Virus record (IMG/VR): IMGVR_UViG_3300020221_000072
Location: 1-32,226 of that record
Strand: one strand, 5' to 3'
Length of the DNA: 32,226 nucleotides
Source: a virus
Shown here: one piece after another, positions 382-908 of the stretch
How the letters are laid out: each line of letters begins with the position of its first letter
How positions within the stretch are numbered: position 1 is the first letter of the stretch
Notes under the pieces: generated by a model
The model's input: the letters and a program-made list of their open reading frames with translations, nothing else
What the model was told of the DNA's origin: nothing
The model's database searches: none
Translations under genes and position numbers: made by a program

Positions 382-455
382 TGGAAGCGGGGAGGGGAAT
401 CGAACCCCTGGCTCCGGGATATGAACCCGGTGTTTTGCCCCTAAACTACCCCGCG
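382..455 (-). tRNA. tRNA with CAU anticodon, initiator-like (tRNA-fMet candidate)
   Basis: On the minus strand the sequence folds as a full cloverleaf: acceptor 455-449/392-386, D arm GTTT/AAAC, anticodon stem CCGGG/CCCGG with loop TTCATAT (anticodon CAT), a four-base variable loop, T arm AGGGG/CCCCT with loop TTCGATT, and an encoded CCA at 384-382. The first acceptor pair is a mismatch (C1 against U72), and three consecutive G-C pairs sit next to the anticodon loop. Both are hallmarks of bacterial initiator tRNA. The acceptor strand begins CGCGGGG, as I recall for the E. coli initiator. Position 11-24 reads as U-A, which is elongator-like. An elongator Met or a CAU-Ile2 tRNA therefore cannot be excluded. 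It lies at the end of the early operon and may be co-transcribed with it. Confidence 0.9.
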
Positions 456-502: not shown

Positions 503-679
503 CTACTGTACCACCACCCCTTCCCTTTCCATCCCCGCTGACCCCTGTTCCAGGGCCCGTATGACGCTCTCCTTGGTCGTGAGGCCCATGACCTCAATTT
601 CCTCCAAATCCCCCCTGACGGTCATTAAAGGCCCAAAGAACAGGTAGTCCACTCCTGCCGTTCTGATCCTGACCACCAT
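503..679 (-). CDS. Small hypothetical phage protein (58 aa)
   Basis: Not recognised. The chosen start gives MVVRIRTAGVDYLFFGP at the N-terminus, predicted to be mostly beta-strand, followed by an acidic patch (GDLEEIEV) and a helical tail. The open frame extends further upstream, but there it only shadows the zinc-ribbon gene in another frame, so I start at the ATG at 679; no strong ribosome binding site decides this. It is the last protein gene of the early operon, before the tRNA. Function unknown. Confidence 0.5.
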   Translation of the reverse strand: MVVRIRTAGVDYLFFGPLMTVRGDLEEIEVMGLTTKESVIRALEQGSAGMEREGVVVQ

Positions 680-704
680 GACGGGGAAGTTTTGTCCTTT
701 GGCG

Positions 705-908
705 TCATCCTTGGTCGTCTTCGGCAGTGGGGGTGGAAAGGGCTTTTTGGAAGTCTTCAAGGGTCATCTCCAGGGTGCGGAAGGTGTGGTTGCAGGGCTG
801 GCATTTACGGACGCGTAGGTTCCATGTTGGGTAGTCCTTGTACTTTCTGGTCTCCAAAACTTCTGTCTTGGTATCACATTGTGGGCAGTGCATGGTGTAT
901 TGGGTCAC
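705..908 (-). CDS. Zinc-ribbon protein resembling the N-terminal domain of NrdR
   Basis: A 67-residue protein with two CxxC knuckles, C8-x2-C11 and C36-x2-C39. Between them are a TR motif (ETRKY) and a W-x2-R-x-R-x-C run, and FRTLE follows the second knuckle. This is the pattern of the zinc-ribbon half of NrdR, the repressor of ribonucleotide reductase genes. The ATP-cone half of NrdR is missing, so nucleotide sensing is not expected. It could bind DNA or a host protein. It overlaps the preceding gene by ATGA (908-905), which indicates coupled translation. The family resemblance is seen in the motif spacing; the function is inferred. Confidence 0.75.
   Translation of the reverse strand: MTQYTMHCPQCDTKTEVLETRKYKDYPTWNLRVRKCQPCNHTFRTLEMTLEDFQKALSTPTAEDDQG

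Follow-up and report, generated by a model that had tools for sequence, protein, structure and literature searches.

Elongator tRNA-Met and tRNA-Gln initiate translation in E. coli once the 1:72 mismatch and the three G-C pairs of the anticodon stem (3GC) are moved into them, and G2:C71, C3:G70 and A11:U24 aid formylation (PMC7949028). The formylase determinants are given as the 1:72 mismatch, G2-C71, C3-G70, G4-C69 and, as a minor one, A73, and both A73 and C32 are listed as elements for methionyl-tRNA synthetase (PMC9976931). The G30:C40 pair is the one contacted by 16S A1339 (PMC11497404). Phage-borne initiator tRNAs have already been described or annotated: phiLM21-like Sinorhizobium prophages carry tRNA-fMet(CAU) as a single tRNA gene (PMC12429752), and the tRNA-Met of phages such as CcrPW, phiCbK, phiM12, Lak and mycobacteriophages matches E. 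coli tRNA-fMet. The gene analyzed here joins them, being likewise phage encoded, initiator like and, as in some of these phages, the sole tRNA, although the phages are unrelated. A mosaic make-up like that of this tRNA was not found described in the literature searched.

A tRNA(CAU) gene in a tailed phage fragment

The window, by which the whole 32,226-base IMG/VR virus fragment, of environmental origin, is meant, carries the genes of a tailed phage (DNA polymerase, helicase, primase, exonuclease, tape-measure, virion, holin and endolysin). Its nearest annotated relative was Phage DSL-LC04 (61.5 kb), 69% identical in the polymerase-helicase region; Mesyanzhinovviridae, for example Bordetella phage FP1, were more distant. 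ARAGORN called a single tRNA, tRNA-Met(cat), and Rfam RF00005 matched positions 385-455 with 58.7 bits at a gathering cutoff of 29 (Table 1). The plain minimum-energy fold gave no cloverleaf (z-score -1.44, weak and uninformative), which is not unusual for unmodified tRNA sequences; the tRNA call is based on the covariance model and ARAGORN, not on the minimum-energy fold.

Table 1. Coordinates of the tRNA(CAU) gene, its diagnostic positions and the two adjacent small genes in the window.
Feature	Position	Strand	Basis
tRNA(CAU) gene including the encoded CCA (382-384)	382..455	-	ARAGORN; Rfam RF00005, 58.7 bits
C1, mismatched with U72 at 386	455..455	-	sequence
U72, mismatch partner of C1; U73 at 385	386..386	-	sequence
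G29-G31, 5' side of the three G-C pairs	426..428	-	sequence
C39-C41, 3' side of the three G-C pairs	415..417	-	sequence
CAU anticodon inside loop UUCAUAU	421..423	-	ARAGORN, sequence
Small ORF of 85 aa that starts with TTG and matches no Pfam family; its end lies 47 bases before the tRNA; homologue adjoins the L006/L466 tRNA	503..760	-	Pfam search, tblastx
NrdR-like zinc-ribbon ORF, 67 aa, second gene upstream; L006/L466 have a homologue in matching gene order	705..908	-	Pfam PF22811, tblastx

The tRNA(CAU) gene is intact. Written by its parts, the tRNA reads CGCGGGG UA GUUU AGGGGCA AAAC A CCGGG UUCAUAU CCCGG AGCC AGGGG UUCGAUU CCCCU CCCCGCU U CCA, with all stem pairs formed apart from 1:72 (acceptor 6/6, D 4/4, anticodon 5/5, T 5/5), the invariant tRNA positions kept and the CCA encoded. 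The D loop has 7 bases and the variable loop 4.

The second gene upstream covers the NrdR N-terminal zinc ribbon only (PF22811, E 9e-8). Just upstream of the tRNA, at positions 460-483, a 12-base unit that reads GGACAGCAGACA on the - strand occurs twice side by side. Positions 1-340 are AT-rich and non-coding, with long runs of A/T and recurring motifs of the GGTGTATAG type, and an origin, a regulatory region or a genome end is possible; the window ends inside this region, the sibling contig L094 ends inside it too, and it is partly conserved at L010 19543-20000 (73% over about 220 bases), where the tRNA is absent. Promoter and terminator matches around the tRNA were no more numerous than in shuffles, and a plasmid search gave weak partial tRNA matches only.

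Initiator and elongator features of the tRNA

The C1-U72 mismatch, the three G-C pairs and the CGCGGGG/CCCCGC acceptor pointed out in the preliminary description were all confirmed in the sequence. The anticodon stem CCGGG/CCCGG provides the three G-C pairs 29-31:39-41, and the formylase pairs G2:C71, C3:G70 and G4:C69 are all there. The mismatch, these acceptor pairs, the GGG/CCC stem, CAU and A37 are shared with bacterial initiator tRNA-fMet, including that of E. coli metY/metZWV and the U72-U73 initiators of Acinetobacter, Cardiobacteriaceae and Desulfohalobiaceae. In contrast, position 11:24 is the elongator-type U11:A24, whereas A11:U24 was found in 38/38 distinct sampled host initiators; the anticodon loop UUCAUAU has U32 and U38, whereas sampled host initiators have CUCAUAA with C32 and A38; and A9, A26, C27:G43 and the short D and variable loops also differ from bacterial tRNA-fMet. 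The discriminator is U73, and host initiators mostly have A73, which is not strictly defining because several of them carry U73. The preliminary description had listed neither U73 and U11:A24 nor U32, U38 and the lengths of the D and variable loops. Pseudomonadota elongator tRNA-Met resembles the window tRNA in its Y11:R24 class and A9 and, in some cases, in U32 and an acceptor one base off (GGCGGGG/CCCCGCU), and differs from it in a paired 1:72, A31:U39 in most, A38 and A73.

Reference host tRNAs from Pseudomonadota genomes comprised 38 distinct initiators, with a 1:72 mismatch and A11:U24, and 27 elongator Met and 21 Ile2 tRNAs, in which 1:72 is paired. The leave-one-out accuracy of a position-and-pair model was 86/86, a flattering figure because the initiator set had been picked partly by the mismatch and 11:24. 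The model scored the window tRNA at 32.6 bits for fMet, 49.5 for Met and 21.6 for Ile2 and preferred Met by 17 bits; the pull toward Met came from A9, A26, U12:A23, C27:G43, G51:C63 and U32, and that toward fMet from 1:72, 73, 31:39, 44 and 49:65. Three covariance models, each built from 13-14 host tRNAs and used in place of the tRNAscan-SE isotype models, gave 54.1 bits for fMet, 54.4 for Met and 42.9 for Ile2, leaving Ile2 out and fMet and Met tied. An Ile2 identity was rejected on this gap of 11 bits and on G4:C69 with the 1:72 mismatch, where Ile2 has C4:G69 and a paired 1:72; the 1:72 pairing expected of an elongator tRNA-Met is absent as well.

The initiator likeness proposed in the preliminary description held for the acceptor end and the anticodon stem, but the D arm, 11:24, A9, A26 and 27:43 are elongator like and the covariance scores tie. 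Of the two identities that it had set against an initiator, Ile2 is ruled out, and elongator Met is left unseparated from fMet by the covariance models and favoured by the position model. The window tRNA is a mosaic in which an elongator-like body carries the two features reported to be sufficient for an elongator to initiate.

Mismatched tRNA(CAU) genes in other phages

The sibling contig L094 has an identical tRNA but, with 99.9% identity over 5.9 kb, is uninformative, and the slot offers two independent sequences only. The other one comes from L006 (polymerase 89% identical), whose only tRNA occupies this slot and is preceded by homologues of both small genes. This tRNA(CAU), 49/75 identical to the window tRNA, has C1xU72, A11:U24 and the loop UUCAUAG (G38) without an intact 3GC, and its covariance scores (fMet 64.7, Met 49.9 and Ile2 44.4 bits) mark it clearly as an initiator. 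The mismatch, whose absence from relatives the preliminary description would have counted against an initiator, is thus present in a syntenic relative. An initiator-type tRNA (C1xA72; 71.2 vs 41.2) also lies at 3188-3262 of L040, just downstream of the DNA polymerase gene and so in a different slot, and in Xanthomonas phage DoCa5 (Mesyanzhinovviridae) an initiator-type tRNA that is not annotated adjoins a terminase gene; no tRNA was found in most other relatives, DSL-LC04 included. On the simplest reading, the tRNA would have been gained at several places.

The isolate phages Bordetella phage PHB09 (MN103401.1), Erythrobacter phage R6L (KY006853.1) and DoCa5 (ON932079.1) carry 1:72-mismatched tRNA(CAU) genes that are missing from their annotation, and those of R6L and DoCa5 adjoin a terminase gene. 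The tRNA(CAU) of viral contig L090, 60/76 identical to the window tRNA, and that of Bordetella phage vB_BbrS_PHB09, which is not annotated, are like the window tRNA in their 1:72 mismatch (UxU), U73 and GGG/CCC, with the loop UUCAUAC; they differ from it in A11:U24 (L090) and a variable loop of 5 bases, and belong to different phages.

A sample of viral tRNA(CAU) was scanned with the acceptor and the anticodon stem both left unfixed (L345-L462). The 1:72 mismatch was found in 36/117 distinct viral tRNA(CAU) among the matches listed and in 14/593 distinct non-CAU, non-His viral tRNAs of the same sample, indicating that it is not background. Among the matches listed, G2:C71 and C3:G70 were both kept in 33/36 mismatched compared with 21/81 paired tRNA(CAU) (Fisher p 1e-11, in a test that assumes independence of viral sequences that are phylogenetically related and come from contigs some of which may include host DNA); the two pairs occurred together in 24/593 of the other viral tRNAs of the same sample. 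G30:C40 was kept in 34/36 mismatched tRNA(CAU), whereas 29:41 and 31:39 varied and pairs 4:69, 6:67 and 7:66 drifted, again among the matches listed. The kept pairs are elements read by the formylase and the 30S head, which is evidence for initiator work, and with the formylase pairs so distributed the mismatched phage tRNAs(CAU) look, from sequence, to be maintained as initiators. Nor are they rare: for CAU tRNAs, the earlier statement that phages encode initiators far less often than elongators is wrong, as seen from the mismatched share among the matches listed and from the 411 phage records that match E. coli tRNA-fMet (E<0.01).

An intact 3GC was present in 0/36 mismatched viral tRNA(CAU) among the matches listed; the re-found L095 has it. 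The window's intact 3GC is therefore not typical of phage initiators, and co-occurrence of mismatch and 3GC was unsupported as a sign of selection. The missing 3GC with a kept G30:C40 might reflect alphaproteobacterial origin or selection. Most of the mismatched viral tRNA(CAU) sampled also have, unlike the window tRNA, R11:Y24 and A38 (among the matches listed). A preference of mismatched tRNA(CAU) for single-tRNA loci was not significant (14/32 vs 27/81, p 0.39, among the matches listed).

Proposed function and competing readings

The tRNA(CAU) encoded by this tailed phage is probably of the initiator type. L223, a proteobacterial initiator of ordinary appearance, also combines C1xU72 with U73, and the initiators of Acinetobacter, Cardiobacteriaceae, Dichelobacter and Desulfohalobiaceae have U1xU72-U73, so the acceptor end of the window tRNA is compatible with initiation. 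Since the mismatch and 3GC are reported to be sufficient when moved into an elongator, the tRNA is best read as having initiator-type function, although U11:A24 and U73, each of which deviates from a formylase determinant, should weaken formylation or charging. U11:A24 lowers the claim that the tRNA is a member of the initiators but not the claim that it works like one, because the 11:24 pair is an auxiliary element in formylation; U73 and U32, against the listed A73 and C32, may reduce charging. Together, the elongator-like body, U73 and U11:A24 suggest that formylation would be poorer than that of the host initiator and that some elongation is possible. One Acinetobacter genome (G021) holds two sorts of initiator (L214, L273), U73 and A73, both with U1xU72.

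The tRNA gene, 47 bases downstream of the small genes on the same strand, would be cotranscribed with them and processed. Through its CAU anticodon the tRNA would be charged with methionine and then formylated by the host formyltransferase. In the P site it would initiate phage translation alongside or in place of host tRNA-fMet. Candidate needs of the phage are a raised demand for initiator and a toxin that depletes host tRNA-fMet. Should it be common for phages to carry an initiator tRNA of their own, they would supplement translation initiation in addition to codon supply, and the survey gives a sequence-level sign of such use in that other stem pairs drift whereas the formylase pairs and G30:C40 are conserved. 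Mosaic tRNAs like this one could show which initiator features are sufficient in nature. The window tRNA is itself a modest curiosity rather than a surprise, start tRNAs being fairly common in viruses and the start hallmarks here standing on an elongator-like body.

It is rather unlikely that the gene encodes a phage elongator tRNA-Met for internal AUG, in which the first acceptor pair was lost by drift and the G-C anticodon stem is coincidental. Many elongators have G1:U72, a single change (G1 to C1) away from the mismatch, and the near-matching acceptor of some Pseudomonadota elongators, the body positions A9, A26, U12:A23, C27:G43, G51:C63 and U32, the preference of the position model and the tie of the covariance models are consistent with such a tRNA. 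However, the rarity of the mismatch in other viral tRNAs, the formylase pairs kept by mismatched viral tRNA(CAU) and the initiator score of the syntenic L006 tRNA argue for an initiator, and pair 31:39, G:C in the window, is A:U in most sampled elongators.

An initiator-type tRNA might instead have been kept because it resists a nuclease or toxin directed against host tRNA-fMet, for instance VapC, the phage copy having U38. Enteric VapC cleaves tRNA-fMet between A38 and C39 (PMC4105405), and anticodon-loop changes have been proposed as a phage tRNA escape from such nucleases; S. flexneri phages are reported generally to avoid tRNA-fMet (PMC10264068). The loop CUCAUAA was present in all initiator genes found (88/150 Pseudomonadota genomes) and deviant in 20/87 distinct viral pattern matches, and position 38 is U in the window and G in L006. 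When compared with every host-invariant position, however, position 38 was not unusually variable: it deviated in 12/61 and 2/36, against 22/61 and 31/36 for position 27 and 30/61 and 19/36 for position 9, and A38 was kept in 34/36 mismatched tRNAs of the less biased sample (among the matches listed). A specific anticodon-loop escape was therefore left without specific support; nuclease evasion is possible but, as the reason why the tRNA is kept, improbable. Similarly doubtful is a recurrent phage-specific kind of initiator, with a mismatched acceptor and G-C stem, an elongator-like body and a pyrimidine at position 38, which would be the natural counterpart of the laboratory elongator-to-initiator conversions and would be selected for still initiating translation after cleavage of host tRNA-fMet at A38-C39.

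A decaying tRNA gene without function, as the unusual U73 and loop and the unstable presence among relatives (most of which, including DSL-LC04, lack a tRNA) might suggest, is quite improbable in view of the other stem pairs, which are all intact, the invariant positions kept, the encoded CCA and the Rfam score of 58.7 bits.

The attachment-site idea of the preliminary description, a captured host tRNA end, is unsupported and very improbable: att sites commonly lie at tRNA 3' ends, but the window tRNA is complete rather than an end, no integrase was found in 20 scanned window proteins (about half of the phage genome lies outside the contig), and no host gene with its 3' half was found in 84,980 species genomes, a set outside which the host may lie. 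The 14 genome matches to the same 3' pattern were host initiators, and those parsed had the loop CUCAUAA and different T arms.
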